IMG/VR virus record: IMGVR_UViG_3300009149_000197
Location: 1 to 28,964 of that record
Reading direction: 5' to 3' (one strand)
Length of the DNA: 28,964 nucleotides
Source of the DNA: a virus
Shown here: positions 2,117 through 26,938 of the stretch, piece by piece
Position numbering within the stretch: position 1 is the stretch's first letter
How the letters are laid out: every line of letters starts with the position of its first letter
Made by a program: the position numbers and the translations under genes
The notes under the pieces: generated by a model
What the model was told of the DNA's origin: nothing
Seen by the model: only the letters and a program-made list of their open reading frames with translations
The model's database searches: none

Positions 2117-2285
2117 ACACCACCCCCAAGTTCTCCATCAATTCAGCTTCGCCGCCTGCCTCGTCGCACATTGCGTCCCAGTCGGACTCGCAGATGGCAG
2201 AGGCGTCACTGCGCACACCCATGTTGTCAGTCTCGGCAAGCAACAGAATACTCAATTCCCCATTACATATTAGGTAGTATTTCAC
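2100..2285 (-). CDS. Hypothetical 61-aa acidic protein
   Basis: I chose the GTG at 2283-2285 because it overlaps the stop of the leucine-rich-repeat gene as GTGA and has GGAGGG about 8 nt upstream; a longer reading from 2321 would overlap that gene by 40 nt. The product is acidic (many Glu/Asp in the C-terminal half) with a hydrophobic N-terminal third (YYLICNGELSILLLAE). No family is recognised. The overlap suggests translational coupling to the LRR protein, so it could be a partner or chaperone of that protein, which is inference only. Confidence 0.5.
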   Translation of the reverse strand: MKYYLICNGELSILLLAETDNMGVRSDASAICESDWDAMCDEAGGEAELMENLGVVYADEF

Positions 2286-3094
2286 GGCGCTGACCCTCCA
2301 TTCCAACTTATTGCGGCCCACGTTTGGAATCCCTGACTATCATCGTCAAATATCAAGTCGTGTAACATTTCCAACTCATCCAACGGCGTCGGATACCCGT
2401 CCTGATATGTCCCCGTCGGTGCAGCATTCGTCCCGCCTATGTTTAACTCAGGCGTCGCATCATCCCAGTCAGCACGTCGTGTCCAAATGTCGAGTATGCT
2501 GCTGTCAACGGCGGATTGTAACATGCCATTGTCCTGAGCCTGAATTTTCACTATCGTATTATTTAAACCGCTCAAGTCTAGCGTAGTAATGTCATTACTA
2601 GAGCAATTCAAATAGGTTAGAGCACTCAGCAAACTTACATCTAGTATAATGAGATTATTACCTGCGCAATCCAAAAACCCCAAATTGGTTGCTGCACTTG
2701 GGTCGAGTGTATCTATATCATTAGAGGCACAATGCAAAGTTGTCAAACTAGTCAACACACTTAGGTCTAGTGTAGTAACCTGATTGCCATAAAACCATAA
2801 CTTTGTCAAACTACCCGCTAAAGGATTAAGTGTGCTACCAATTGCCCCCGCAAGACTGTTGTCATGCAAATTTATCCCTGTTACATGCCCGCCAGCTACT
2901 GTAACTCCGTTCCAGTTGCCGACAATCGGGTCAGTAAGCCAGTTGGTGTTATCAGTCCAGTTAGCTCCGTCGGTGGCGTTGTAGAGCTGCACCAGCGCCA
3001 GCGCCTCGCCAATTGGCACGTCGGTGACACGCTTCCAGAGAGGTTCTGGCCCCCCTCGCCGTCGAACTTGCGTCCCCGTTATTCTAGCTCGCAT
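2282..3094 (-). CDS. Leucine-rich-repeat protein, putative tail-tip or receptor-interacting protein
   Basis: The 270-aa product has an N-terminal cap-like region (about 28-84) of the type found before bacterial LRRs (ALVQLYNATDGANWT, then NWNGVTV). About four 21-residue LRRs follow at roughly 97-180, each on the pattern L-x-x-L-x-C/Y-x-x-N-x-[IVL]-x-x-LD-x-S. There is no signal peptide. LRRs form curved solenoids that bind proteins or glycans. The gene overlaps the end of the preceding structural gene by 11 nt and lies in a run of fibre-like genes downstream of the tail hub, so a receptor-binding or adhesion role is likely. LRR proteins are uncommon in siphovirus tail modules. A secreted or intracellular host-interaction role cannot be excluded. 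Confidence 0.8.
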   Translation of the reverse strand: MRARITGTQVRRRGGPEPLWKRVTDVPIGEALALVQLYNATDGANWTDNTNWLTDPIVGNWNGVTVAGGHVTGINLHDNSLAGAIGSTLNPLAGSLTKLWFYGNQVTTLDLSVLTSLTTLHCASNDIDTLDPSAATNLGFLDCAGNNLIILDVSLLSALTYLNCSSNDITTLDLSGLNNTIVKIQAQDNGMLQSAVDSSILDIWTRRADWDDATPELNIGGTNAAPTGTYQDGYPTPLDELEMLHDLIFDDDSQGFQTWAAISWNGGSAP

Positions 3095-7092: not shown

Positions 7093-9612
7093 TTATGCGC
7101 TATGTACCTCCAGGCTCAATCCGTGTAGCTCAATCGCTGTCCCCGCTGCATCATAGACGAACCCCGCTATTGCCCCCAACGCGGTGGCGTTATTGTAAAG
7201 TATATTGGTATTAACTCCTGGCACGGTAAGTCCTATTGTTACAAAATTCCCGCCGTCGGTAAATGACAGCGGGCTACTCGTTCGCAGTACCCCATCTCCC
7301 GCTGCCGCACCTAAATATCCTGGTGTGGCGACCGCGTCCACTGCCACTAACTCGTCGGTAGTGACTATTGCCGACCACTCTAGTTCTACTGTGCCGTTTA
7401 CGGCCTTAATCGTAAGCACTTCGTCAGCTGCGGGGGCATCTACTGGGGCACGGTAAACTACGCTTTCCAGTGTCAGAAGTGCCCCGTCAGCCCACGCAGT
7501 ATCGCCGTCTGAACCGGCAACTGAGAACTTTGTGACATTCCCATCATCTTTGACATAGACAGAATCGCCGGCCGTTGTGGGGTAAAGATACGAGCTGCCT
7601 CCGTTACGCGACCACAGAGCATGACTGGGGGTCTCGTCGGTGTCAATCCAAATATGAGGGCAAGTATCGGTTGGCTCTGCATCCTGCACATAGATAGGCG
7701 TTGCCCACTCAAGCTGCCAGGGGCTGCTGCCCCCTGACGGCGCACGCAGGTAATCACAGCCAGCCGGCGCAACTGTCGGCATTCGGTAAGCGATACCTTC
7801 CCAACTCATCAGCGCCGCTGCTATCCAGGTGGTGTTAGCGGTTGCCCCATCAACCTCAAAGCGCAAGGTCCCCGCAAAGGCGGCCCCGCTATACATGCGT
7901 AGATCTTGCGCATTACTTACAGCCATCCCTAGATTATTAATGTGCAGTGTCTCTGTTGCCCCACCGTTTGGCCGTACAGACAATGATACGTTGCTAACGG
8001 CTTTCCAAACGCCAACTGAGCCATCATCACCTATCGCGGTATTGACACCACCCTCCATATATAGGTAGACACCGCCGCTTTGATAGATATGCAGCTTCGC
8101 TGATGGTGCGGCGTTCTTGCCGATAATGACATTAACGTCATATTGGTCTGCAGCATAACGGGTATAGTAATAGCCGGTAACAGAATTATAGAGCCATAGG
8201 CAAACTCCCGACGGCAAGGCTGCAACTACTAGCTTGTGAGCCGGAGCATCTTCAGTTACCGTTGCGGTTGTCCCATCTCCCTCAATTGTAATGACACCGC
8301 TACTCGGCAATACTTCGGTAGGAGTATCGCCCTGAATCACGAACTTGTGGATATGATCCTCCCGTACTATGTGGTGTCCAGTTCCCTCCGTATTAGCTCC
8401 ACCGACATACGTAGGGGTATCGTACTCTGGGAGATAGATGTTATACACCTCAGGATTGCTCTCTGGGCCAGTGCCCCCGCGCGCACTTTTCGACGCCTTC
8501 TTAACCTCGTCGTCTCCGAACAAAAGTTCTAATTGCAACACCCCATCGGGAAATGAGAACTTAATCCCCTCCACTTTTTCATCCGCCGCATCAAGCTGCA
8601 TCCGTCGGTTGGCGTGTGTAATTTTGTCGCCCAAGAAAAACTCTTCCAACCACCTGCACGGCCCGACACGTGTGCTACTCTCCCACTCCCAGTCTTGCCC
8701 CTTCTTAATAGCGCGCTCAGCCAGAATGGTTTCCAGCTTATCCTCATTCGCTGGCTGAGCGCGGCTTTCCCATCGTCCCCAAGCCGCTATGCTAGTGGCA
8801 TCAGTGACTATATTCTCGTGCTGGTCACCGTAGACCGCATTTGACATTCCAAACCAGTCTCGGAAAAACGTCCCCTGTGGACTGGTATTAGCAATATCAT
8901 TAATCACAACTGGCACGTTGCCGTCTGTATTACTCTGAGAACGATCTGTTCCGCCACGAGGATACGCAGTGTCAAAGTTGAATTCTAGTCCACTCGCTCC
9001 AATCGTAGTCCGCAATTCAAAATCGAAATCGCGTCCTTTCGCCAACCCGTTAATTATGTCTAGTACAAACTCCCCCGTCATCGGATAATCGGCCACACTG
9101 GGAGCTGCCCCATGATTCCCCGTAACGGAAAGAGTTCCCCATCCAAACTCGCGTGAGTTTGCGTCACAATCGACTCCACTAAACATAGCGGTTACTAACT
9201 CGTGTGCCACATCGTCGGCGTGTCCGCTCTGAACATATCCCCCGTCATCAAAGGCTACTCGCGATCGAAGTAGGTACTCAACCCCCACGATCTGCATGTC
9301 AACTTTGTCAAACGCGCCCTCGCTGCTGTATCCTGTTTTCGGCTTACCGAGAATACCCCAAACGGCATGTTCCCCCAACCCATACGGCGTTATGCGAACA
9401 AACTGAATTGTATCAAAATCTATCGTTTCCCCAGCCGTCCCGTCTAGGGCAATAGTTACTTGCGCGCTATCGAGCCTATGCGTCGTAACGCCTGGCAACA
9501 GTTTCCCACTAATCGAAATGATGTAGCGATTGAGACGGCAAAGGAGAGCGCCACTCGCGCTTATAAGTTCAAATTCAAAATCATCGAATCTCGGAATGCT
9601 CGGAACCGTCAT
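7093..9612 (-). CDS. Tail hub/baseplate protein (Gp37-like) fused to a beta-rich fibre region
   Basis: The 839-aa product starts 3 nt after the Dit-like gene. Residues about 1-385 resemble the siphovirus Gp37-like or Tal-type hub that follows Dit: an N-terminal beta domain (FDDFEFELISASGALLCRLN) and a middle with DVAHELVTAMFSG and NGLAKGRDFDFEL. The part ending near residue 370 (FSFPDGVLQLELLFGDDEV) is typical of these hubs. Residues about 395-839 are Gly/Ala/Thr-rich, beta-strand-prone fibre sequence with an early HxH (DHIHKF). The hub closes the tail tube and the fibre part may reach the cell surface. No peptidoglycan hydrolase motif is visible, so I do not call a tail lysin. Confidence 0.75.
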   Translation of the reverse strand: MTVPSIPRFDDFEFELISASGALLCRLNRYIISISGKLLPGVTTHRLDSAQVTIALDGTAGETIDFDTIQFVRITPYGLGEHAVWGILGKPKTGYSSEGAFDKVDMQIVGVEYLLRSRVAFDDGGYVQSGHADDVAHELVTAMFSGVDCDANSREFGWGTLSVTGNHGAAPSVADYPMTGEFVLDIINGLAKGRDFDFELRTTIGASGLEFNFDTAYPRGGTDRSQSNTDGNVPVVINDIANTSPQGTFFRDWFGMSNAVYGDQHENIVTDATSIAAWGRWESRAQPANEDKLETILAERAIKKGQDWEWESSTRVGPCRWLEEFFLGDKITHANRRMQLDAADEKVEGIKFSFPDGVLQLELLFGDDEVKKASKSARGGTGPESNPEVYNIYLPEYDTPTYVGGANTEGTGHHIVREDHIHKFVIQGDTPTEVLPSSGVITIEGDGTTATVTEDAPAHKLVVAALPSGVCLWLYNSVTGYYYTRYAADQYDVNVIIGKNAAPSAKLHIYQSGGVYLYMEGGVNTAIGDDGSVGVWKAVSNVSLSVRPNGGATETLHINNLGMAVSNAQDLRMYSGAAFAGTLRFEVDGATANTTWIAAALMSWEGIAYRMPTVAPAGCDYLRAPSGGSSPWQLEWATPIYVQDAEPTDTCPHIWIDTDETPSHALWSRNGGSSYLYPTTAGDSVYVKDDGNVTKFSVAGSDGDTAWADGALLTLESVVYRAPVDAPAADEVLTIKAVNGTVELEWSAIVTTDELVAVDAVATPGYLGAAAGDGVLRTSSPLSFTDGGNFVTIGLTVPGVNTNILYNNATALGAIAGFVYDAAGTAIELHGLSLEVHSA

Positions 9613-14864: not shown

Positions 14865-15266
14865 TTATGTCGTGATATGTGCCCAGTCGCCCGCCGCGCC
14901 CCATCCAGCAGTTAGAGTAACTGCGCCGTCTACCGACGCCTCGATACTCATATCGACCCACGCCAACCCATAGTGATATTTCGTTGTTGCGCCCGATGAT
15001 GGGTACAGATACATTTTTAGTCTTTCGCCGGAAACCATCGCCGTATAAAATCCTTCGAAAGAGTCATCCCACCATGCGCTAAATTCTCCACTACAATCGG
15101 GCAATCCCTGAACGTACTGGATATTACTATCTCCCATCGCGGGTGTCGCCACTCTATCGGCCGCCATACTAAGTGACCAGCTTTGCAACGACGTGGTGGT
15201 TGTCGCCTCGCCTGCTGCGCTTGTCCCCATATACACTACGCCGCCATGCCCATGATATCTACTCAT
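14865..15266 (-). CDS. Major tail (tube) protein
   Basis: The 133-aa product starts at an ATG with AGGAGG 7 nt upstream, overlapping the previous gene by 8 nt. It is a compact beta-rich protein with tail-tube features: an N-terminal arm (HGHGGVVYMGTSA), a SWSLSMAADRVATPAMGD block of the type used in tube subunits, IQYVQGLPDCSGEFSAWWDD in the middle, and a terminal strand pair (DMSIEASVDGAVTLTAGW). Small tubes of 130-200 aa are normal in siphoviruses. It is followed two genes later by the frameshifted chaperone, which supports the call. Confidence 0.85.
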   Translation of the reverse strand: MSRYHGHGGVVYMGTSAAGEATTTTSLQSWSLSMAADRVATPAMGDSNIQYVQGLPDCSGEFSAWWDDSFEGFYTAMVSGERLKMYLYPSSGATTKYHYGLAWVDMSIEASVDGAVTLTAGWGAAGDWAHITT

Positions 15267-16329
15267 TTTCGTGCCTCCTGCTCTCGTCTACAAAAATCAA
15301 ATTGTCTATTAAGTCCCTAGCCCTGTTCTCGAACGTGTTCCCCTGAACGGCTTCACATAGTTTGCGAGCACGTTCTTCCCGTTCCTTGTCATGCCCTAAC
15401 CACCAGCGCATCATGTCGCCAAACTCAGTGGGATCTCTGAATATCGGCAATGCTCCGCCGAATACCTCTTCCGCTTCTGCCCGATCATCGCTGATAAAAA
15501 ACACACCACTTGCGGCCAGTTCATAATCTCGTGGGCCTAAACTGCTGGCTGCGCCCTCGTCAATGAGCAGAGCGTCTGGCCCATATCCTACTGATCGGCG
15601 GTGTAAGCTGAAACTCATCTTGGCCGCCTTGTACGCGGCAATAGCCCACTCGTTAGGGATTGCATCACTCTGAACGCATTGCCGTAGTGGACTATCATCA
15701 TCTAGCAGCTCCCACACCCCATATAGCCCCAGATCAATTCCCGTCCAGTCTACCTGCTCCAGGAATTCTACTCGTTCCCGAAATCCCGTGCCCACAAATA
15801 CCACGTCATGTCTAGGCATTTCTATTGTGGGCGGCTTGGTATTGTGCCGTTCTGGGTCAAACGCATGTTGCCAATAAAACGTATATGGCTGCACCTCTTT
15901 AAAGGCAGGAAGACTATTCCTCTCATTCGTCCAGCAGGCATATGCGTTCCGTGCCATTTTTAATTGAGGCGCATCATCATAAGGGCTTTCTGTGCACAAA
16001 ATTGCAATCGGCAAGTGTGCTCTATGTAATAGCTCGACCACGTCTGGATGGAAACTCATCCCCGCAACTACCAATACTAGATCGACATTGAATCGGAGTG
16101 CCCGCTCCAGTATCTGCACCGATGTCTGGTATAGAATTTCTTCTTTTGACGGAGGCGCCGCCTCTTTTATTGCGTGTAGAAAATGCAGGTACTGTGCCAT
16201 GACATTCATCCGTCCGTCTAGACTAAATCGTATCACCTCCTGCCCGTGCATCTCTAACCCCTTGGCCAGTCCGTCATGAACCTCAGCGGTTGCATAATTC
16301 GCCGCAGGGTGCACTAGAAGTATCTTCAT
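15259..16329 (-). CDS. GT-B-fold glycosyltransferase (CgeB-like)
   Basis: The 356-aa product begins KILLVHPAANYATAEVHDG, a Rossmann-type start of a GT-B enzyme. In the second domain SLGPRDYELAASGVFFISDD (about 260-285), followed by FRDPTEFGDMMRWWL, matches the donor-binding end of CgeB/glycosyltransferase 1_2-type enzymes, where a Glu/Asp after the Arg contacts the nucleotide sugar. The family transfers sugars from nucleotide donors. The start overlaps the zinc-ribbon stop as ATGA and the gene ends 8 nt into the tail tube gene, so it is expressed with the virion proteins. Acceptor and sugar are unknown; a virion protein or a pre-existing glycan are the main candidates. Confidence 0.8.
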   Translation of the reverse strand: MKILLVHPAANYATAEVHDGLAKGLEMHGQEVIRFSLDGRMNVMAQYLHFLHAIKEAAPPSKEEILYQTSVQILERALRFNVDLVLVVAGMSFHPDVVELLHRAHLPIAILCTESPYDDAPQLKMARNAYACWTNERNSLPAFKEVQPYTFYWQHAFDPERHNTKPPTIEMPRHDVVFVGTGFRERVEFLEQVDWTGIDLGLYGVWELLDDDSPLRQCVQSDAIPNEWAIAAYKAAKMSFSLHRRSVGYGPDALLIDEGAASSLGPRDYELAASGVFFISDDRAEAEEVFGGALPIFRDPTEFGDMMRWWLGHDKEREERARKLCEAVQGNTFENRARDLIDNLIFVDESRRHENE

Positions 16330-16523
16330 TCGTCATCTTCCTCTTGACGGTAATTTATGATAACTTTCTCTGAGAACTCCTCGGGCGGATCGTATGAAAA
16401 CCCCTTCGTGGGTGGGGGCAACGGGGACTCCCGCTTCGCCAAACATTCTGGGCAAACTGGCCCGTCAACCTCTCGCAATAATCGCCCGCAATCCTCGCAT
16501 GTCGTATATCCTTTACCTACCAT
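16326..16523 (-). CDS. Small zinc-ribbon protein in the modification island
   Basis: The 65-aa protein carries a probable zinc ribbon, C-x2-C at residues 9-12 (TTCEDCGRL) and C-x2-C at 24-27 (PVCPECLAK), then a Pro-rich and acidic tail (EEDDE at the end). It starts one base after the sulfotransferase stop and overlaps the GT-B start as ATGA. Possible roles are a binding partner of the neighbouring enzymes or a small regulator; there is no direct evidence for either. Confidence 0.7.
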   Translation of the reverse strand: MVGKGYTTCEDCGRLLREVDGPVCPECLAKRESPLPPPTKGFSYDPPEEFSEKVIINYRQEEDDE

Positions 16524-16524
16524 C

Positions 16525-17097
16525 TCACTCCTTCATGTATCCGTATCTATCTGCCATATCAACGATTCGTGGAAACATCTCGGGAGCGGCTCTACTTAGG
16601 TCATCCCAAGAAATGTCATTGTGCTCTCTGTGATTTGTATCTTTCGGGATACTGGTTGTCGCTACATCATACCTGATTTCGTAACCGAGTATAGCCATGA
16701 TATACGTCCACTCATCTTCAAGATTCTCAATTCGATAGGTCATACACGCTTGATCTTCGGCTAACCGATTCCACCAATACCAATAGTGGGCACTGCGTTT
16801 TAGTACCAGCCAATCAAGATTAATCGGAATCCATCGAGCAACAAAATCCCAGCTACTACTTGTCATCACGCTGGCAATGTTATTCAACGGATGACGCACC
16901 TGGTGGAAAATCCAATCAAACTGCGGTCTTGGCCCTTGCTGGTGAAACTTGGGATACGGCGGACTGGGTGCAGTCCAGACACTGCTAACTGCCCCGTCGG
17001 TTCCCAGATACTCGTGGCCAACATCTATGCCAGCCTGCTGCAAACTTCTCGCTATGTATAGCGTACCACTTCGCCCGCACCCCGTTATTAAGAACAT
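16525..17097 (-). CDS. Sulfotransferase (PAPS-dependent, P-loop)
   Basis: The 190-aa product starts with FLITGCGRSGTLYIARSLQ, the 5'-phosphosulfate-binding P-loop of sulfotransferases (GxGRSGT), and has HQVRHPLNNIASV at about 65-77, fitting the 3'-phosphate-binding block (R-x-P-x-x-x-x-x-S). It is a little shorter than typical family members. These enzymes move sulfate from PAPS to hydroxyl or amine groups on glycans, lipids or proteins. It lies between a methyltransferase (10-nt overlap) and a zinc ribbon, with glycosyltransferases on both sides, which suggests sulfation of a phage-built glycan. Host PAPS would be needed. Confidence 0.8.
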   Translation of the reverse strand: MFLITGCGRSGTLYIARSLQQAGIDVGHEYLGTDGAVSSVWTAPSPPYPKFHQQGPRPQFDWIFHQVRHPLNNIASVMTSSSWDFVARWIPINLDWLVLKRSAHYWYWWNRLAEDQACMTYRIENLEDEWTYIMAILGYEIRYDVATTSIPKDTNHREHNDISWDDLSRAAPEMFPRIVDMADRYGYMKE

Positions 17098-17648
17098 TTT
17101 GCCACCCGCCTGTAGAAACTTGTCTGCGTGGGGCTGAGTTGACTGGCGCTGTTGATCTTCGTCCCTGCAAAAACGTGCCCTTCCCAGCGAAGATCTTCGT
17201 CAAGAGATTTGCTAATCGCTCTTAGCAATCGCCAGTTAGAGTCGTCAATGACTAGATGACCGCCCACCTTGACCTTGCCCATTGCGGTTCCTATACACGC
17301 AATCCGTGTGCTACTATCGCCGTCGACAGAGACGAAGTCGAAATACTCTGACGGGAATCGTCCGATTGCAGCAGTATATTCTGCGAGACTTGTTAGAATC
17401 ACTTGCGGCGATACTCCATGCATCTCGGCTGCTTTCATCACTTCAGCATACCAACTCTGCCTGTGCTCTACTGAAACTACCATCTCTGCACGTTTCGCTA
17501 ACCAGATAGTAGAATGCCCACTGCCATACTCAAAGACTCGACACATGCCCTCATATGGTTGCAAGAGAACATCCCAATAAGCGATGGCCTCAGGAATGAG
17601 CGACGGTGTGGGATCACTTCCTATGGGTCTCACTCTATGATTATCCAT
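17088..17648 (-). CDS. Class I SAM-dependent methyltransferase
   Basis: The frame extends to a TTG at 17696, but I prefer the ATG at 17646-17648: GAGG lies 5 nt upstream and it does not overlap the previous gene. The 186-aa product contains motif I as VFEYGSGHSTIWLAKRA (SAM-binding loop), a motif II acidic residue in VVSVEHRQSW, FDFVSVDGDSS in the motif IV region, and VKVGGHLVIDDS as the following strand. The fold is clear but the substrate class is not; O-methylation of sugars, as in many glycan clusters, fits its neighbours. It overlaps the sulfotransferase start by 10 nt. Confidence 0.8.
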   Translation of the reverse strand: MDNHRVRPIGSDPTPSLIPEAIAYWDVLLQPYEGMCRVFEYGSGHSTIWLAKRAEMVVSVEHRQSWYAEVMKAAEMHGVSPQVILTSLAEYTAAIGRFPSEYFDFVSVDGDSSTRIACIGTAMGKVKVGGHLVIDDSNWRLLRAISKSLDEDLRWEGHVFAGTKINSASQLSPTQTSFYRRVAKCS

Positions 17649-17670
17649 TGTCCCCTCATAATATGAAAGG

Positions 17671-18363
17671 TCATTCTTGCTCCCACCACCCCACAACGTC
17701 TAGCCCCTTGTCGTTTAAATATACGTTCTTTGACCATAATGAATCAATTGAGTCAATAGCCGTAATCGAACTGATCTTGCTTCGATGTGGAATAACTACG
17801 CGCTCAATTTCCCGCCGATGTAGGTGTGCGCTAATAACAATATCATCATTCATGGGCCATTGCTCCCACTCTTTAAGGAGGCTGATCCTGAGCAACCCCG
17901 GCCGATATAGTGCTCCCCAATTCCCCGATAGAATTGACACTGAGACAGCGGGCCCTTCCCTCACAGAAATTGTTGCCGCTGAATTGTAATTTCTATTATC
18001 CCCCCTAAATACCCGCCCACGATAGCACGGGACACAGCCCGAATGATGTTCGCTATAATCTATCAGGTCTTCCGCCCAATGCTCACCATAGAGCACGTCA
18101 TCATCGGCAGTAATGATCATTTCGGTCTCTATATTCAGTAATGCGGGCAATAGCTTCGTGATCGGGCCATAATCTGCCGTCACTTCAACACAACAATCAG
18201 CTAAAAAATCTGGCACTTGACCATCCCAAGTCACCCCTAATCGCGTGACTTCTTTCGGAATCCAGACATATACCGGTAATCCCTGTGCCAGCAATCCATT
18301 AATGCACGGCTCAATATACGGTAGGCGGCCCGGTATGGTTGTAAGAGAGATGATTGTCTTCAT
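17671..18363 (-). CDS. GT-A-type glycosyltransferase (230 aa)
   Basis: The product starts KTIISLTTIPGRLPYIEPCI, as in nucleotide-sugar transferases, then has a GPITKLLPALLN stretch and the metal-binding DxD-type motif in MIITADDDVLYG (about 83-94). The later NWGALYRPGLL and WPMNDDIVISAHLH segments resemble the acceptor side, with a second acidic cluster (NDD). It overlaps the preceding GT2 gene as ATGA. The sugar and acceptor are unknown. A role in glycosylating virion proteins or a host-surface glycan is inferred from the neighbouring transferases and from the late operon. Confidence 0.75.
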   Translation of the reverse strand: MKTIISLTTIPGRLPYIEPCINGLLAQGLPVYVWIPKEVTRLGVTWDGQVPDFLADCCVEVTADYGPITKLLPALLNIETEMIITADDDVLYGEHWAEDLIDYSEHHSGCVPCYRGRVFRGDNRNYNSAATISVREGPAVSVSILSGNWGALYRPGLLRISLLKEWEQWPMNDDIVISAHLHRREIERVVIPHRSKISSITAIDSIDSLWSKNVYLNDKGLDVVGWWEQE

Positions 18364-18872
18364 TGCATTTTGCTCATTGCTTTTTTAATCCACATGATCT
18401 TATCTGCTAGTTCATAACACCTGGTCAGAAATGGATAATCTCCTCCTCGTTTAGGCTCAAATGCTTCTATTGCCTGCATCCACACATCTCTTTGTACCAC
18501 CACTGCGCTAATGCCTATCTCCCCAAACCCCGGACACCTCATCCCCTGCTTTGGCAATATCCTGCCCTTATGATCCATTTGCATTACGATCAGATCTGGG
18601 TCATTTGCGATAACAATGTCTCGAATCTCTGCTACAAAGTTTTCGCTTATCAATTGGTCATCATCGTCTAGAATGAAAACGTAATCCCCATAGACCTTAT
18701 CCTTATGAACTATAAGCTGGCGATTGGCCCACTCAATCCCATGGCCCTTGCTATCTTCCAGAACCAGGTGCTGAAAATCCTGATCGGTCTGTACGCGTAA
18801 GCTGGCAGCGCAAACAGCGAATTGCTCTTCCCGACTCAACAAGTGCCGAGTTACTACCGTTAGCAAGGTCAT
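18360..18872 (-). CDS. GT2-like glycosyltransferase (170 aa)
   Basis: This short GT-A enzyme begins LLTVVTRHLLSREEQF and has the metal-binding aspartates in YVFILDDDDQLISENF (about 64-79), the hallmark of family 2 transferases. It lacks the longer C-terminal half of full GT2 proteins, as do several GT2-like proteins in phages. The start overlaps the tail terminator stop as ATGA and the end overlaps the next transferase as ATGA, so it is translated in the structural operon. Donor and acceptor are not predictable from sequence alone. Confidence 0.8.
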   Translation of the reverse strand: MTLLTVVTRHLLSREEQFAVCAASLRVQTDQDFQHLVLEDSKGHGIEWANRQLIVHKDKVYGDYVFILDDDDQLISENFVAEIRDIVIANDPDLIVMQMDHKGRILPKQGMRCPGFGEIGISAVVVQRDVWMQAIEAFEPKRGGDYPFLTRCYELADKIMWIKKAMSKMQ

Positions 18873-20322: not shown

Positions 20323-20817
20323 CTAGCTATATCGCTCGTACCAAAGATTTAGCTTCAAAGTCTCTTCATCGCCAGCCGCGCTATTAATCGTTGTCGTGCC
20401 TTCATGGTAGTATACGGCATATAGGGTCTGAACCGCGTGAAACGGATATTCTGTCCCGACCTTATAAACCATTGATCCTGCCCCACTAGCATTTTCCTCT
20501 ATCCAGTCTGACGCGGCTATTGTAATTGTGGCCACAATGGTCGGCCATTCTCCAACCACAAGGTTCGCATCCCCGTTAGCAACTGCGGGATTAGCATCAA
20601 AAATAAAAAGCCTTCCGGCTTCTGTGATAATTGCCCCGCTGCCCGTTTCGCTTGCATATAAGGCTACTGCCAATATCTTGCCGCTGCTCGGCTGGACACC
20701 TTCCAGAGTAATGCTAACACTAGGGCCATAGTCATACTGAGCAACCGCGTTGTCTTTACTTATGAGAGTTTTTAATCCCGTTTCGCGTATCCCGTCCCAT
20801 GGCTTACTCAACGGCAT
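20323..20817 (-). CDS. Putative virion-associated beta protein (164 aa)
   Basis: The product overlaps the 94-aa gene by 14 nt. It is predicted beta-rich (GPSVSITLEGVQPSSGKILA, then AVQTLYAVYYHEGTTTINSA at about 128-147) with no membrane segment or signal. It lies in the head-to-neck part of the operon and resembles capsid decoration or neck proteins in composition, but no family is recognised. Confidence 0.6.
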   Translation of the reverse strand: MPLSKPWDGIRETGLKTLISKDNAVAQYDYGPSVSITLEGVQPSSGKILAVALYASETGSGAIITEAGRLFIFDANPAVANGDANLVVGEWPTIVATITIAASDWIEENASGAGSMVYKVGTEYPFHAVQTLYAVYYHEGTTTINSAAGDEETLKLNLWYERYS

Positions 20818-21088
20818 TGATGGCCTCCTTTACGTCCCACTGAGTAATCCGCCTGTCTATATGCAGATCCCCCAGATCAACGCCATGCTCTTCGGCCAAC
20901 ACGCGCGCCCCGTCAGTGGCATCTATTACTGGCTCGTCTATCACCGGCGCGTCTAGCAGCTCTGTCTGCGCAATCTTATCGTGAAACCGCTGTCCGGCCA
21001 GCTCATAGATAACCTCTATATGATCTGCACGCAATACGGTTTTCAACACTTGCTTTGGGGCAATTCCCAAATACTCCCAAATCTCCAT
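20804..21088 (-). CDS. Small protein with a peripheral-subunit-binding-like domain
   Basis: In the 94-aa product, residues 57-92 (DGARVLAEEHGVDLGDL, then RRITQWDVKEAI) closely follow the E3-binding/peripheral subunit-binding domain pattern of 2-oxo acid dehydrogenase E2 enzymes (ARxLAxExGVDLxxV, then GRIxxxDVxxAI), but lack the GTG loop residues between the two helices. The first 45 residues are beta-rich. In a virion operon the small helical domain more likely binds a structural partner than an E3 subunit. The gene follows the paralogous decoration-type genes. Confidence 0.65.
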   Translation of the reverse strand: MEIWEYLGIAPKQVLKTVLRADHIEVIYELAGQRFHDKIAQTELLDAPVIDEPVIDATDGARVLAEEHGVDLGDLHIDRRITQWDVKEAINAVE

Positions 21089-21097
21089 GAGACCCCC

Positions 21098-21466
21098 CTA
21101 GCTGTAAACGTCACTGGTTAGCACTAGCATATACCCGCCGATTGTGCTTGCATTAGCCGCAGCATTCGCATCGAAACTCAACTCACTACCCGCCTCTACA
21201 ACTACCGGAGTTTCGGCTCCACCAAAGTGTGTGGAAATCCACTCACCAGGATCTTCTTTGTCCGCGCAGTCAATCGCCGTGATAACTCCTGAAGCGTCGT
21301 CATTTATGTCAACCGTCAATCCCGAATCATCTGTATCAGATCCGAGAGAAACGTAGACAATCGTACAATCGAAGGGAACGTTGATATAATAGTCTAACGC
21401 CCCCAGCGCAGCGCCTTCTACAGGATTTACCATCTTAATCGGGATACTCAAAAGTCGCTCATTCAT
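21098..21466 (-). CDS. Putative decoration-type protein, paralog B (122 aa)
   Basis: This beta-rich protein is a tandem copy of the upstream gene: by hand count 96 of 122 residues are identical with no gaps, including the invariant block IDCADKEDPGEWISTHFGG. It starts at an ATG behind AAGGAGA, 17 nt after the end of paralog A. It lacks catalytic motifs and signal peptide. Its position after capsid, lipoprotein and protease genes suggests a capsid decoration or fibre-type protein. Differences are concentrated around residues 11-30, 40-51 and 106-120, as expected for exposed loops. Confidence 0.7.
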   Translation of the reverse strand: MNERLLSIPIKMVNPVEGAALGALDYYINVPFDCTIVYVSLGSDTDDSGLTVDINDDASGVITAIDCADKEDPGEWISTHFGGAETPVVVEAGSELSFDANAAANASTIGGYMLVLTSDVYS

Positions 21467-21483
21467 TTTCGTGTCTCCTTCTA

Positions 21484-21852
21484 CTAGCTGTAAACGCCAC
21501 TTGTTAGCACTAGCATGTAGCCATGAATAGTTGTTTCAGCCGCTGCGTCGTTCGCATCGAAACTCAACTCACTACCCGCGTCTACATGTACTGGAGTCTC
21601 AGCTCCGCCAAAGTGCGTACTAATCCACTCACCAGGATCTTCTTTGTCTGCGCAATCTATTCCCTCGATAACCCCTGTTGCATCATCGTTTATGTCCAGC
21701 GTCAAATCGGGATCATCTGTATCTGCTCCAGCGGAAACGTAAACGATCTCGCAGTCGAAAGGGATATTGATAAAATAGTCGTCGTCCCCCAGAGCCGACG
21801 CGTCGGCCGGATTCACCATGTCAATCGGAATGCTCAGAAGTCGCTCATTCAT
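21484..21852 (-). CDS. Putative decoration-type protein, paralog A (122 aa)
   Basis: Its ATG overlaps the stop of the CHAT-like gene as ATGA. It is beta-rich and acidic, with VSAGADTDDPDLTLDINDDA and a C-terminal AGSELSFDANDA strand region, and no signal peptide or membrane helix. The near-duplicate gene follows it. High copy is plausible for a decoration or fibre protein, but the sequence does not reveal copy number. No family is recognised. Confidence 0.7.
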   Translation of the reverse strand: MNERLLSIPIDMVNPADASALGDDDYFINIPFDCEIVYVSAGADTDDPDLTLDINDDATGVIEGIDCADKEDPGEWISTHFGGAETPVHVDAGSELSFDANDAAAETTIHGYMLVLTSGVYS

Positions 21853-22406
21853 ACCACACCTCCAGCTATAATCTCAAACGCCAGTGCATCTTTGCTAGGA
21901 CATATCTTCTGTCCTAGCGCTGTCTTGAACTGACGCCAATCTAATCTCAATCTCATCTTCGCCAGTCTCAAAGCCCATCGTACTGGCAACCCCAATCTCA
22001 ATCCTCGCCACACCCATCGGGCCAATAGGTCGGCCCCTACTACCCGTCGTGCCGCCCCATAGTTCGGGCCTGGCCCTGCTATCACAATTGCACCCGCACT
22101 AGTCAACGCGCTCACAAATATATCTTCTGTGCCATAGCAGTTCGCTATAAGAACAACGCAACCACTAAGACTTGCATGTGCTAAATTTCTAATCACAAGA
22201 GCCGTCGGCTTTGATCCGTCCTGCCCTTCTCCATACCATTGTCCCTGTGCAGTGCTGTGCAATCGGAAGTAAAGCATATCTAGATCACGCAATTTCCTAA
22301 CTGGAAACTGACTAGCTATGAGTGGCGGCGAGGTCAAAGGAGTTATCCCTAGCGCCTTCTGTACGGCCACCGCCGCCACCTCGGTACAATAAGCTACTAT
22401 TCTCAC
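21849..22406 (-). CDS. CHAT/caspase-fold-like cysteine protease candidate
   Basis: The 185-aa product has the pattern of a caspase-hemoglobinase fold, CHAT-type. The strand LDMLYFRLHS ends in a candidate catalytic His50. The strand CVVLIANCYGTED carries candidate Cys90 followed by Gly, as in the CHAT L-x-A/N-C-x-x-G block. AGAIVIAGPG follows as the next strand, and ARWVWRGLRLGLPVRWALRL matches the closing helix pattern of CHAT domains (G-x-x-V-x-x-A-L). It is a single domain with no signal peptide. Its start overlaps the lipoprotein stop and its end overlaps paralog A (ATGA both times), so all three are co-translated. Likely targets are neighbouring virion proteins, but cleavage is unproven and the protein could be inactive. 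Confidence 0.55.
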   Translation of the reverse strand: MRIVAYCTEVAAVAVQKALGITPLTSPPLIASQFPVRKLRDLDMLYFRLHSTAQGQWYGEGQDGSKPTALVIRNLAHASLSGCVVLIANCYGTEDIFVSALTSAGAIVIAGPGPNYGAARRVVGADLLARWVWRGLRLGLPVRWALRLAKMRLRLDWRQFKTALGQKICPSKDALAFEIIAGGVV

Positions 22407-24430
22407 TTGATTCTTATGTAGAGCAGGTACAGTGTCAGTTCGCCAGCTTCCAGGTCATCGCCCGTCGCGCCCCACGCCACATCAATAGTATCAGCTGCGC
22501 CGCTCGGAGCAATGATATAGCCCGCCCCTGCCGCCATATACGCGCCAATAGTATCTACCCCATATCCCTGCCAACCCGCAGGCCCGTTCGCAACATCCGT
22601 GTCTGCCTTTTGTAGTTCAGCATCGTCCAAGTCCAAAATGCCGTCGGGGTCAGCAGTATCCCCCACATCAAAAGTAGCATCATCGCCTGCCGTTGCATCC
22701 CAGTCCGTGGTAACGTTAGCGTAGCAATTGAGAATGATCCAGATTTCGCCGTCAGGAACTGTAGCCAGCGTATGAGTTCCGCCAGCCCCAATTGTCCAGG
22801 TGATATCTTTTGTTATCAACGAAGGGGCCATAAAGTTCTTGACCTCAGCCGCCAGCGTGGTCAAACCGCTTATGCTAACATCCCCCGTCATGGCAATAGT
22901 GCCATCCGTGTTGTTGTCAATGGTCTCTCCATGGTCGAGCACAATGTCTGCCCCCGTGAAGGAAGCATCCTCCATGTTGATTCCATTGACCATATCGCTT
23001 GCGCCAGAGGTCATCTCGACGCCAACATCCATTTTTGCGCCGCTGTTGCTGGCATGGCTGTTCAGGAAGAGCCCCGCGTCCATGTTGGACGAGCTCTCGA
23101 TATTGATGCCATAATCGACCACAGTGTCGTTGTGCGTCTTGAAGAACAGGCCATTGGTCTGTACGTCAAAATCCTCAGTAGCCGTTGGCCCCCATTCGCC
23201 ATAGAGCAGGTTGAGCGTAGCCGAACTCCCGCCCATGTTCGACAGCATCCCGCCAGAAGTGCCACCGTGAATGGCCGCTCCCACAGCGGAGATATTGTCG
23301 TCGACAGTATAGGTCTGCGTCTCGTTCACGTTGACTAGAACGTCAATCGCGTGCAACTGATTCACTGCCACCGCTTCGCCCGCGCCTCGCATGTCCATCC
23401 GCCCACGCAGTGCATAAGCGTTCTGTACGTCTTCAATGGGATTAGAGGAGGCATAGATGCCGTTGCTACCCCCACCGGTCATATCAGCGCCCGCCGTCCA
23501 CTCTGCGGTGATCAAGTCTCCATACTCATTGGCCGTAGTCGTGCGGCTGATGTCAACTGTAGAGTTCATATCAACCGGGCCATCTGCGCGTAGCGTGCCG
23601 TCAAACTCACCATCTCCAGCTACAAGCAAATCATTATCGCCATCGGCTACATCGCCATCTACACCCGCATTGCCAACATTTAGCATGTCGCCATCAATGG
23701 CAAAGGGCCCTGCGGTTGTCAGGTCAACGTCCACGCCCAAACTACCGACATCGATGTCAATTCCGGCACCAGTTTCATCCGCATCCAAGTAGATAGCAGC
23801 TTGATCAGCTTCGTCGCCTTTGATTGTAACGCTAGCTACTTCAGACTCAATAGTTATGTCACCTGCGGCGGTATTGAAATTGCTCGCAAGATCGGCATCT
23901 AACGCAATAGCCCCTTCAGCATCAACGTCAAGCCCCGCGCTACCGGTGTCTATGTCAATTCCACCACCAGTCTCGTTCGCATCCAAGTGGATAGCATCCC
24001 CAGCCGCCTCGTCACCCTTGATGATGACACTCTTAGTCTCGGCTTCGAGGGTTAGGTCAGCAGCGCTCACGTTGAAATGACTGGCCGTATCTGCATCCAA
24101 GGTTATCGCCCCAGTAGTATCCACATCAAACGCGCCAGTTATCGACGCGTCGTCCACCACTGTGAGATTGCCGTCCGCGATATTAAGCGCGTCCTGGCCA
24201 GCCGTTCCCGTGATTTCCAACGCAGCATCTGAGGCGTCCCATAGCATAACGTCGCCACTCGTGCCGCTATACCAGGTCACATCAACGCCCGTGCCGCTCA
24301 CGCCGAAATGCGTATCACTCGTAACGTGACTCGTTCCCATCTCCTGAACTTTGTCTCGTTCGCAGCCAATCAACCCGATCATTAGGATGACGGCCAGGAG
24401 AACACTCCATATAATTCTTTTGTGTCTCAT
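22403..24430 (-). CDS. Large predicted lipoprotein with tandem beta repeats
   Basis: The 675-aa product starts with a charged N-terminus, a hydrophobic core and the lipobox LIGC (Cys23), i.e. a classical lipoprotein signal peptide; Glu follows the Cys, which in diderms often means outer membrane. Residues about 107-238 contain two 66-residue repeats (first lines GAITLDADTASHFN and GAIALDADLASNFN). A long beta-rich fibre-like region and a C-terminal beta domain (about 555-675, ending LTLYLLYIRIK) follow. It lies 24 nt after the capsid gene. It may be a surface-exposed late lipoprotein (superinfection exclusion or receptor masking), or a virion fibre whose N-terminus only resembles a signal. 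Confidence 0.7.
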   Translation of the reverse strand: MRHKRIIWSVLLAVILMIGLIGCERDKVQEMGTSHVTSDTHFGVSGTGVDVTWYSGTSGDVMLWDASDAALEITGTAGQDALNIADGNLTVVDDASITGAFDVDTTGAITLDADTASHFNVSAADLTLEAETKSVIIKGDEAAGDAIHLDANETGGGIDIDTGSAGLDVDAEGAIALDADLASNFNTAAGDITIESEVASVTIKGDEADQAAIYLDADETGAGIDIDVGSLGVDVDLTTAGPFAIDGDMLNVGNAGVDGDVADGDNDLLVAGDGEFDGTLRADGPVDMNSTVDISRTTTANEYGDLITAEWTAGADMTGGGSNGIYASSNPIEDVQNAYALRGRMDMRGAGEAVAVNQLHAIDVLVNVNETQTYTVDDNISAVGAAIHGGTSGGMLSNMGGSSATLNLLYGEWGPTATEDFDVQTNGLFFKTHNDTVVDYGINIESSSNMDAGLFLNSHASNSGAKMDVGVEMTSGASDMVNGINMEDASFTGADIVLDHGETIDNNTDGTIAMTGDVSISGLTTLAAEVKNFMAPSLITKDITWTIGAGGTHTLATVPDGEIWIILNCYANVTTDWDATAGDDATFDVGDTADPDGILDLDDAELQKADTDVANGPAGWQGYGVDTIGAYMAAGAGYIIAPSGAADTIDVAWGATGDDLEAGELTLYLLYIRIK

Positions 24431-24454: not shown

Positions 24455-26938
24455 CTACACATTCGCTTTGTAAAGCGGTCGGAAGTCGGCTACCGGTGCG
24501 CAGTCATAGGTGGAGCTAAATCTATAGATCATCAACCGCACCTTGAACCGCAAAGTATCATTCGTGAACATAGAACCAGCAGTCTCGTCCCCTGCCTCGA
24601 AAATCTCAGGTGTCCGCAGCCCACGCAAATAAACGAGATAGATCGCAGGCCATTGTCTAGGATCAGCTACTGCCGCCCAATGATCCGTTTCTGTCCATTC
24701 AGGGACTGTGATAATCTCAAATCCCTGATAGTACGGGTTCACATCGTTGTCCATCGAAACAGGCACAAACTCACTGTTGCGAATCTGCGTTGCTGTTGAT
24801 CTAAGATCAACAGGCACAAGTAGAAAATGCGGCTGAATCAGCAACTTTGTACCGGCGCCCAGCGCCTGGTCGGTTTGCTTCATCATTGCCGTCACTGCCG
24901 CGTCCCACGTTGTGTAACTTAGTGCCGTAGTCCCAAGGTTAGCGTGTCCACCTGAGCTTGAAGCTGCCGTCGCGTTGAACAATGCCCCGCTCGGGTTCAT
25001 CACGGGTCCCGTAGCAGTGTTCGTGGTGAACACCGCACTCACCAGCGCCGACTGGGTGTTAAACCACGAGTTAGACAATCGCCTTGGAAGCGATCGAATC
25101 ACATTCAACTTGTCCTTTAGCATCGTCTCCATCGTGATTCCCATATAGTTACCGCGCTTGACAAACGAAGCGGTTTCTTCCTCGTCAGTCCAGTCCATTT
25201 CAGTGTAGGCCGCGCCTTCTGTAACCGTATCCAATGTGTCCGTTCCGTACAGCCGTGCCAGAGTGATGTCGTCAATAGTATCAACTTCCTCAATTGTCAC
25301 GACGTCTTCAAACCACCGGCGACGCTCAGAATAATCGGCCGCCACTAACAGGTTCACTGTATTCTTGATGATGGTTGTAACCGTAGCGGTTGTTACCGCT
25401 TCACGCGCCCTTGACGTTAGGGGATTCCCGCCCCATACGTTATAAAGCCAGTCGGACAATCGGCGTTCCCGATAGTTTGGTCGGCCCGCGTTCTGCCATG
25501 AACGATAGGATTCGGGCATACGATCCTTGACCCAATCCTCGCTTATGCTTTCCAGCTTGCGCATTGTGCTGCTACCGGCAACCAGGTCGAGAAATGCCAT
25601 TTCAGCCTTCTCAATACTCGCCATGCCTACCTTGATATCCCCACCGCCCGCGCCGGTTATACGCCCGCTGGTATCGGCTTCGGCCTGTGCGCCCTTCAGT
25701 TGTTTCACCATTTTGTCTACCTCTGCTTCCGTTACAACGCGTCCGTCAAAAGCTGCCTCAGCTACTGCTTGAAATTTGGCCGACAGATTAGCCCTCGCTA
25801 GCTTTTTGTCCATCATGATCTGCGATTCCAGCTTGGCCACCTTCTTGGTCATACTGTCGTCCTCAACGATTTCAGTCTCTTCGACTTCGGGCTCTTCGTC
25901 AGAAGCCTCTTCAACAGGTTCCGCGTCAACTTCAGGCTCAACTTCCTGTTCGCTCTCTGGCTCGCTTTCGATAACCTCTTCTCTTATCCCCAGCTCGGCG
26001 AGGGCCGCCTTGAGCTCTTCGGGATCAGCTTCCTGCAAAAATGTCAATAGTTTACCCATCTCGTCTACTCCCTGATCTACTGTTATGGCCGCCACGATTC
26101 TATCAAATGCTCCGCCGGCAGCCGGGTTTGATACCACGTCTACTGAGAAAATGTGCTCAAAGGATTCGATGGTCGGCCACATGTCGCCCTCTACACGCAC
26201 TCGACCCACGTTTCCCGGTACGGTGTCAATGCTCAACCCAATACTATCCAGCACGCCCGCATCATGGGCGGCTTTCAATTTCTTGCCTAAAGCTTCATCT
26301 ACAACCTTCAGGCGCCCCCGCAACTTATGAGCACTCTCGTCCCACCGTACATTGACAATCGTGCCCACCCACTCGTTTGCTACGGAACGCATTCCCTGAC
26401 GCTGTTGAAACTCTTCATCGGATAAATGGTTGTCAAAAACCTTGACGCCTTCCCATAATCCGACGCTGTCACGCAATCCGTCAACACTGTACAACCGTTC
26501 ATTCTTGGAGCGAATGTACTGCCGCCCCTCGACGGTAAGCAGATCGCCGCCTTCTCTTGCGCCAATGAGCGTTACATCCCACTCGCGGCCTGTAAACTCG
26601 CCGTCCCCTTGTGCTGGTGTAACGTCAGCCTCAACGATATGTGACTCGCGCCCCACCCCTGGCCGTTCTGCGCGCCGCATTGTACCGCCACATTCTGGGC
26701 ATTTAATATCAGCACAATGTTCCTCGCTTGCCATAACATACCCGCAGTCCAGACATTCACATTGATAAGCCTCCGTTTGCTCTTTGGCAGAGCGCCACTG
26801 TGAATAACAAATAGCCGTTGCTTGATTCCGATCCTCTTCACTATCTGAGTCTAGCCCTTGATCCTCAATCACTATCGGAATGCAACGGGATATAAACTCT
26901 TGTTCTTTTTCCCCTGACGTAGGTGCCGGTAGTGGCAT
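24455..26938 (-). CDS. Fused prohead protease, linker and major capsid protein with zinc ribbon
   Basis: The 827-aa product starts behind GGGAGG (6 nt spacing). The N-terminus resembles that of other prohead proteases (ICYSQWR at about 43-49), then a zinc ribbon follows with C62-x2-C65 and C80-x2-C83. Residues about 115-285 are the HK97-type protease: VKVFDNHLS with His171 and SIGLSID with Ser236, then EHIFSVDVVSNPA. An acidic, helical linker (about 300-400) resembles the scaffold or delta domain, and about 400-827 is the HK97-fold capsid (IIKNTVNLLVAADYSERR, then GNYMGITMETMLKDKL, ending CAPVADFRPLYKANV). The protease would cut the linker after assembly. A fusion makes protease and capsid one-to-one, unlike most phages, unless an internal start is used. 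Confidence 0.88.
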   Translation of the reverse strand: MPLPAPTSGEKEQEFISRCIPIVIEDQGLDSDSEEDRNQATAICYSQWRSAKEQTEAYQCECLDCGYVMASEEHCADIKCPECGGTMRRAERPGVGRESHIVEADVTPAQGDGEFTGREWDVTLIGAREGGDLLTVEGRQYIRSKNERLYSVDGLRDSVGLWEGVKVFDNHLSDEEFQQRQGMRSVANEWVGTIVNVRWDESAHKLRGRLKVVDEALGKKLKAAHDAGVLDSIGLSIDTVPGNVGRVRVEGDMWPTIESFEHIFSVDVVSNPAAGGAFDRIVAAITVDQGVDEMGKLLTFLQEADPEELKAALAELGIREEVIESEPESEQEVEPEVDAEPVEEASDEEPEVEETEIVEDDSMTKKVAKLESQIMMDKKLARANLSAKFQAVAEAAFDGRVVTEAEVDKMVKQLKGAQAEADTSGRITGAGGGDIKVGMASIEKAEMAFLDLVAGSSTMRKLESISEDWVKDRMPESYRSWQNAGRPNYRERRLSDWLYNVWGGNPLTSRAREAVTTATVTTIIKNTVNLLVAADYSERRRWFEDVVTIEEVDTIDDITLARLYGTDTLDTVTEGAAYTEMDWTDEEETASFVKRGNYMGITMETMLKDKLNVIRSLPRRLSNSWFNTQSALVSAVFTTNTATGPVMNPSGALFNATAASSSGGHANLGTTALSYTTWDAAVTAMMKQTDQALGAGTKLLIQPHFLLVPVDLRSTATQIRNSEFVPVSMDNDVNPYYQGFEIITVPEWTETDHWAAVADPRQWPAIYLVYLRGLRTPEIFEAGDETAGSMFTNDTLRFKVRLMIYRFSSTYDCAPVADFRPLYKANV
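26057..26072 (-). promoter_or_regulatory. Possible internal ribosome site and start inside the capsid fusion gene
   Basis: A GGGAG (26068-26072) stands 8 nt before an in-frame ATG (26057-26059), codon 294, exactly between the protease domain and the acidic linker. Initiation here would give a 534-aa linker-capsid protein without the protease, which would solve the stoichiometry of the fusion. The positioning is suggestive; use is unproven. Confidence 0.45.

Follow-up and report, generated by a model that had tools for sequence, protein, structure and literature searches.

Most of what is known of CHAT peptidases concerns immunity and cell death, and phages encode surface lipoproteins for superinfection exclusion, such as T5 Llp, which is lipid-anchored on the host surface. 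In the type III-E CRISPR system Craspase, the TPR-CHAT peptidase Csx29, with catalytic residues H615/C658 (PMC10028731), acts on a dedicated, co-encoded substrate, Csx30, which is cut once; craspases have one substrate each, in which they cut M/K, L/D and A/S bonds, and the cut site is not conserved from one orthologue to another (PMC11106740). PorU, a clan CD enzyme, cleaves and anchors the cargo of the type IX secretion system (T9SS) (PMC8545088, PMC4560394). Here, we analyze a 28,964-base stretch of virus DNA (IMG/VR record IMGVR_UViG_3300009149_000197, hereafter the window), in which a gene for a small CHAT-like peptidase lies beside a gene for a membrane-anchored, fibre-like protein. We tentatively propose, at somewhat less than even confidence, that the sequences describe a stand-alone CHAT-like peptidase and its dedicated substrate, the anchored fibre, which would be cut after Met or Leu to free its ectodomain.

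A close parallel is Craspase, in that a CHAT peptidase is encoded together with a dedicated substrate that would be cut once. Csx29 is also the best fold match of the window enzyme (8eex, Z 12.6), the His-Cys spacing is similar, and craspases accept M and L at the cut site. In contrast to Craspase, the enzyme here is a stand-alone protein of 177–190 aa without TPR or an RNA-guided partner (gRAMP/Cas7-11), and the proposed substrate is a membrane-anchored phage fibre encoded in a phage late operon. The CHAT fold is likewise shared with the SAVED-CHAT filament protease and DdvA (Z 11–12), but the phage enzyme has neither a sensor nor a transmembrane (TM) domain and no defence genes adjoin it. 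With PorU, a gingipain-family sortase, it shares clan CD, surface-anchored proteins as partners and a terminal signal (gingipain R fold, Z 9.7), although the signal here is an N-terminal leader instead of a C-terminal domain and no secretion system is present. T5 Llp resembles the fibre in being phage-encoded and displayed on the host surface by a lipid anchor, a display that is predicted for the fibre; unlike T5 Llp, the fibre is large and repetitive, lies in a head module and is paired with a peptidase and a motif resembling a cut site.

The two genes are part of a four-gene block, all on the minus strand. The order along this strand is a MuF-like protein, small genes, the protease-capsid fusion, the four-gene block, small genes, and the neck and tail module. 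An initial annotation of the window had placed a block of four genes after the capsid gene; they are consecutive, and their coordinates are confirmed:

24455..26938, minus strand: protease-major head protein fusion (capsid, 827 aa), upstream neighbour of the block (PHROG 4523 and 133; PF25209, E = 2.6e-26)
22403..24430, minus strand: membrane-anchored fibre-like protein, 675 aa, with a lipoprotein signal peptide, a repetitive beta-rich body and a C-terminal beta domain; proposed substrate (sequence, homologues, neighbourhood)
24362..24430, minus strand: signal peptide with lipobox LIG/C, codons 1–23; predicted lipidated Cys, C23 (sequence)
24335..24346, minus strand: Q29-E30-M31-G32, matching Q-x-M-[S/G/A]; proposed cleavage after M31, 8 residues past the lipobox Cys (motif counts)
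21849..22406, minus strand: stand-alone CHAT-like clan CD cysteine peptidase, 185 aa, GTG start (model and structural matches)
22257..22259, minus strand: codon of catalytic-candidate His50 (YFRLH), invariant in 31/31 homologues
22137..22139, minus strand: codon of catalytic-candidate Cys90 (IANCYG), invariant in 31/31 homologues
21484..21852, minus strand: jelly-roll protein copy 1, 122 aa, cement/decoration- or fibre-tip-like (model and structural matches)
21098..21466, minus strand: jelly-roll protein copy 2, 122 aa, 79% identical to copy 1 (sequence comparison)

The peptidase gene overlaps the gene for copy 1 in an ATGA at 21849, as the initial annotation had it, but the second overlap that it read as ATGA, between fibre and peptidase at 22403, is a GTGA with a GTG start. 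The 17-nt gap it gave between the two small genes is correct.

By its modelled fold and its His/Cys dyad the 185-aa protein is a CHAT-like clan CD peptidase with predicted activity, which bears out the earlier description of it as CHAT-like. A model built from ten phage homologues had a predicted local distance difference test score (pLDDT) of 84 and a predicted template modelling score (pTM) of 0.83. When it was compared with solved structures by VIA-align, ranks 1–19 were all clan CD (Z 12.6 to 8.4), with the flavodoxin background starting from 7.6; Csx29 was followed by DdvA (12.4), SAVED-CHAT (11.4), separase (10.6) and gingipain R, and caspase was also among the best. Foldseek alone gave weak matches (best E = 1.7e-3) and ranked flavodoxins and dehydrogenases beside caspases, and clan CD matches in a viral structure library were weak. 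Given the unclear Foldseek result, the fold call rests on the VIA-align order and on the invariant His50 (YFRLH context) and Cys90 (ANC context), which are retained down to about 31% identity. The two residues are 40 positions apart, compared with 43 for H615/C658 of Csx29, and occur in the same order. The enzymes are 177–190 aa long, and their neighbours are capsid, fibre and neck genes. None of the 31 peptidase members matched the CHAT profile (PF12770), and one gave a weak C25 match (E = 0.13). More generally, the peptidase and its homologues had no profile match at a useful level in Pfam, PHROGs or PADLOC, and sequence searches of PDB sequences and isolate phages returned no match to the peptidase, which hence is not filed in a named family. 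Homologues were found only in viral contigs and none in a bacterial genome collection; a search of the same collection with the capsid gave nothing usable.

After merging of near-identical capsids, 35 distinct phage loci with the peptidase were counted, the window phage and at least 34 relatives (individual loci carry L numbers below). In every locus with readable flanks (34/34) the peptidase gene adjoins a gene for an anchored fibre, that is, a protein whose N-terminus carries a TM helix or a lipobox ahead of a repetitive, beta-rich body. The count includes L096, with a doubtful 95-aa open reading frame (ORF) between the two genes, and L095, for which the fibre start was taken from the opposite contig end. 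The pair occurs in either order and with two capsid types: capsid-fibre-peptidase in the fusion-capsid phages and three Mu gpT-type phages, and capsid-peptidase-fibre in the remaining Mu gpT-type phages. This order and linkage is far beyond chance. The initial annotation had asked for a neighbourhood analysis over relatives and would have given up its functional set had the genes rarely been neighbours; for the pair they are neighbours in every readable locus. One locus, L009, appeared to be a phage without anchor or peptidase and was rejected as such, because its pair sits 3 kb further on. The converse of the rule fails, given that 16 anchored fibres occur without the peptidase, which was not found elsewhere when the whole records (up to 59 kb) were searched. 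The initial annotation had also noted that head modules normally pass from capsid straight to connector, which is true of the closest isolate, Microcystis phage Mae-JY22.

The fibre N-terminus has the features expected of a lipoprotein, MRHKR..VLLAVILMIGLIG/C23, with a positive n-region, a hydrophobic core and a lipobox Cys for which lipidation is predicted, in agreement with the earlier lipoprotein call. Relatives carry either a lipobox (L033, LAGC; L090, LIGC; L092, LVGC; and L093) or, in most cases, a plain TM helix, and from their sequences the two anchor types, lipid and TM helix, are interchangeable at the fibre N-terminus. No profile matched the window fibre protein itself; its homologue in L025 matched Phage_depo_C (E = 5e-10), and that in L030 had weak similarity to cyanophage YadA-domain structural proteins (E in the 1e-4 range).

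Just outside the anchor, the leaders carry a short motif that tracks the peptidase. Q-x-M-[S/G/A] is present in 23/23 leaders accompanied by main-clade peptidases, 0/12 accompanied by divergent-clade peptidases and 0/16 of the peptidase-free leaders (Fisher's exact test, P = 2.7e-11). With divergent-clade peptidases, 10 of the 12 leaders have L-G at the equivalent place, as does L095. The Q-x-M-[SGA] motif does not recur in the remaining 5481 aa of the fibre bodies, and Q-x-M does not follow any of 92 other N-terminal hydrophobic segments in ORFs of the peptidase-free loci. Conversely, all 24 ORFs of the loci that combine a hydrophobic leader with QxM are these fibres or second leader-bearing beta proteins. 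A relaxed motif (either Met or Leu, followed by G, S or A) was rejected, given that six peptidase-free fibres have L-[AST]-G. The change in the motif is local, as is evident from near-matched pairs such as L089, which has the peptidase (VAL/GVTHFSGLDVTG), and L101, which has none (FSQ/GITNFSGLDVTG). The capsid tree requires at least 11 changes of the main-clade state and 13 in the presence of any peptidase, and the motif follows the peptidase state in every independent pair; on supported branches this holds for 5/5 pairs for the main clade (P = 0.06) and 7/7 for any peptidase (P = 0.016). Distances between peptidases correlate with those between leader cores (r = 0.74; partial r = 0.65 given capsid distance, P = 2e-4).

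The motif also correctly predicted a peptidase gene. The L005 contig ends inside a fibre with a YQEMG leader and with no peptidase in view; a search of the whole record found the peptidase at the other end, where the contig ends overlap by 144 bases, so that the fibre spans the junction and the peptidase follows directly. Furthermore, in two loci a second small beta protein (L027:5533-6063 and L030:9560-10066) also starts with a TM helix and YQVM[S/G], and its homologues in L024 (8818-9192), L026 (9468-9842) and L020 lack the leader, which suggests that the leader is a module attachable to different late proteins. The leaderless homologues in L024 and L026 are a natural control for the role of the leader.

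In the reading that we prefer, the fibre would be exported and displayed on the outer face of the host membrane in late infection, as its signal peptide suggests, and would be held there by lipid in the window phage or by a TM helix in most relatives. The peptidase would recognise the short juxtamembrane stretch and cut after Met or Leu (in the window V-Q-E-M31/G32), so that the ectodomain of the fibre comes free and the anchor stays in place. Given that the peptidase has no signal peptide, it would have to reach its site before export or else at lysis, once the cell is open; we consider lysis slightly more likely, and a cut at this point would detach displayed fibres from the membrane of the dead host together with whatever they had bound. 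More broadly, the leader may be part of a phage system for surface display and release, in which a removable lipid or TM leader is parted from its protein by a dedicated caspase-like peptidase at a clade-specific site (after the Met of QxM or between L and G), at a set moment such as lysis, and in which the leader serves as a portable tag that a genome may attach to more than one protein; this wider scheme is possible, and we hold it more loosely than the cut itself. The initial annotation had suggested a maturation system of the cell or virion surface, which is the best reading for the lipoprotein and CHAT-like pair and does not extend to all four genes. Several observations weigh against a cut at the motif. 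The peptidase lacks an export signal, yet the motif comes to lie on the outer side of the membrane. A CHAT enzyme need not have a conserved site, given that the sites cut by Craspase orthologues are not conserved. The L-[AST]-G of the six peptidase-free fibres (ALAG, SLSG), which belong to phages of the second capsid type, lies near the same place, which indicates that a hydrophobic residue there is not itself a cutting mark. The phylogenetic test on the best-supported branches has few pairs (5, P = 0.06; 7, P = 0.016). Lastly, the cut itself, the bond concerned, the moment of cutting and its advantage to the phage are what we infer from the sequences, and the motif could be structural and inherited in a cassette that moves as one.

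A structural motif, marking the start of the fibre fold, would fit a peptidase that targets a host protein (of defence or the envelope) or triggers lysis and is kept by the fibre through an exchangeable surface cassette. Elsewhere, immunity and regulated death do involve CHAT enzymes (PMC10028731), the 11 or more state changes across the capsid tree make the cassette look exchangeable, and the G-x-T-[NH]-[FL] part of the stretch is common to peptidase-free fibres. We nevertheless regard a host target as unlikely, because it leaves unexplained why QxM or L-G alone track the peptidase when adjacent residues are shared (L089 compared with L101), and why the same leader is found on a second protein in L027 and L030. 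Those second proteins, two different leader-bearing proteins per genome, would also suit a sortase-like enzyme that, having cut at the motif, joins the fibre to an acceptor (capsid, cell-wall group or another fibre), and clan CD includes transpeptidases such as PorU (PMC8545088, PMC4560394); PorU, however, uses a C-terminal signal on the outer surface, whereas the signal here is N-terminal and the enzyme lacks an export signal, and no acceptor is visible, which makes transfer improbable. If the peptidase had stopped cutting and served as a partner or chaperone holding the fibre leader, binding alone would be enough to produce tight pairing and covariation, but a pure binder would not need a His and a Cys that are invariant in 31/31 homologues, and we give this very little credence. 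The view of the initial annotation, that the four genes are one functional set, stands for the lipoprotein and CHAT-like pair, which are adjacent in every readable relative and co-vary in sequence. Its extension to the 122-aa proteins as partners of the peptidase is very improbable. A 122-aa-family or similar small beta protein does directly follow the peptidase in six fusion-capsid phages (window, L008, L114, L135, L019 and L005), in which the start of the small protein overlaps the peptidase stop, often in an ATGA, or lies almost against it. The 122-aa family, however, lies right after the capsid gene in many peptidase-free phages, often also without an anchored fibre, occurs in duplicate without a peptidase in three phages (L016, L014 and L104), and has no member beside the peptidase in Mu gpT-type phages. 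The 122-aa genes are thus separable from the peptidase/fibre pair, and the four genes were rejected as one set.

A partial literature search yielded no account of a CHAT-like peptidase encoded in a structural operon of a phage, and none of a fibre that is displayed and then cut free. The CHAT-like peptidase sits here in the structural operon of the phage itself, and with one neighbouring partner that carries a candidate cut site it forms an unusually clean pair of putative enzyme and substrate, whose substrate is predictable from sequence through the motif. If the proposed cut is real, phages would encode a means to place large fibres on the host surface and remove them, which would bear on superinfection, receptor masking and release from debris, and the leader would count as a protein-sorting signal new to phages, with a dedicated enzyme to process it. 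The proposal could be tested at low cost, because the enzyme is small and stands alone.

The two 122-aa proteins are not nearly identical, as they were described initially to be, but share 96/122 aa (79%) and 77% of their DNA sequence. The duplication is old, given that L016 carries orthologues of both copies. The model is a jelly roll (pLDDT 92) for which the best structures are a tail fibre domain (9rkv, Z 9.8) and a eukaryotic monooxygenase domain (9.2); phage cement and capsid-surface proteins, KHP40 and Pam1 among them, score Z 7.4–8.0, near background for the jelly-roll fold. By predicted fold and by position behind the capsid gene, they resemble the KHP40/KHP30 cement proteins, the Pam1 and GP4 capsid proteins and the fibre of phage 7-7-1, at about 8–14% identity and with Z values (7.4–9.8) near background. 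The family is widespread directly behind the capsid gene, whether or not a peptidase is present, and its members are probably ordinary head-region jelly rolls, cement or decoration, that accompany the pair without being needed for it. In L019 a 337-aa protein (8537-9550) with about three tandem copies of a similar beta domain of ~110 aa replaces the 122-aa protein.

Downstream of copy 2, 9 nt beyond its gene, lies a 94-aa protein (20804-21088, minus strand) whose family bears an E3-binding (peripheral-subunit-binding) domain at the C-terminus (PF02817; E = 5e-8 in L033, 11340-11675; weak in the window, 0.025); the family is also present at L023:5079-5405 and lies downstream of the fibre/peptidase block in most relatives. 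The capsid fusion has a four-cysteine, zinc-ribbon-like stretch near its N-terminus (residues about 57–90, CECLDCGY...CPECGG), with weak matches to DUF7129 and HVO_2753-type zinc-binding families. Amid the tail genes, a minus-strand run (15259-18872) encodes glycan- or small-molecule-modifying proteins, comprising a glycosyltransferase-like protein (PF13524, E = 1e-13), a weak rhamnosyltransferase match, a methyltransferase (PF13578) and a sulfotransferase-like start (GCGRSGT), and L008 has a similar insert at the equivalent position. Proteins of TPTPT and YLPLVM-like type lead us to guess at a Chloroflexota host. A 270-aa leucine-rich repeat protein (LRR_4, E = 1e-9) is encoded in the tail region at 2282-3094 on the minus strand.

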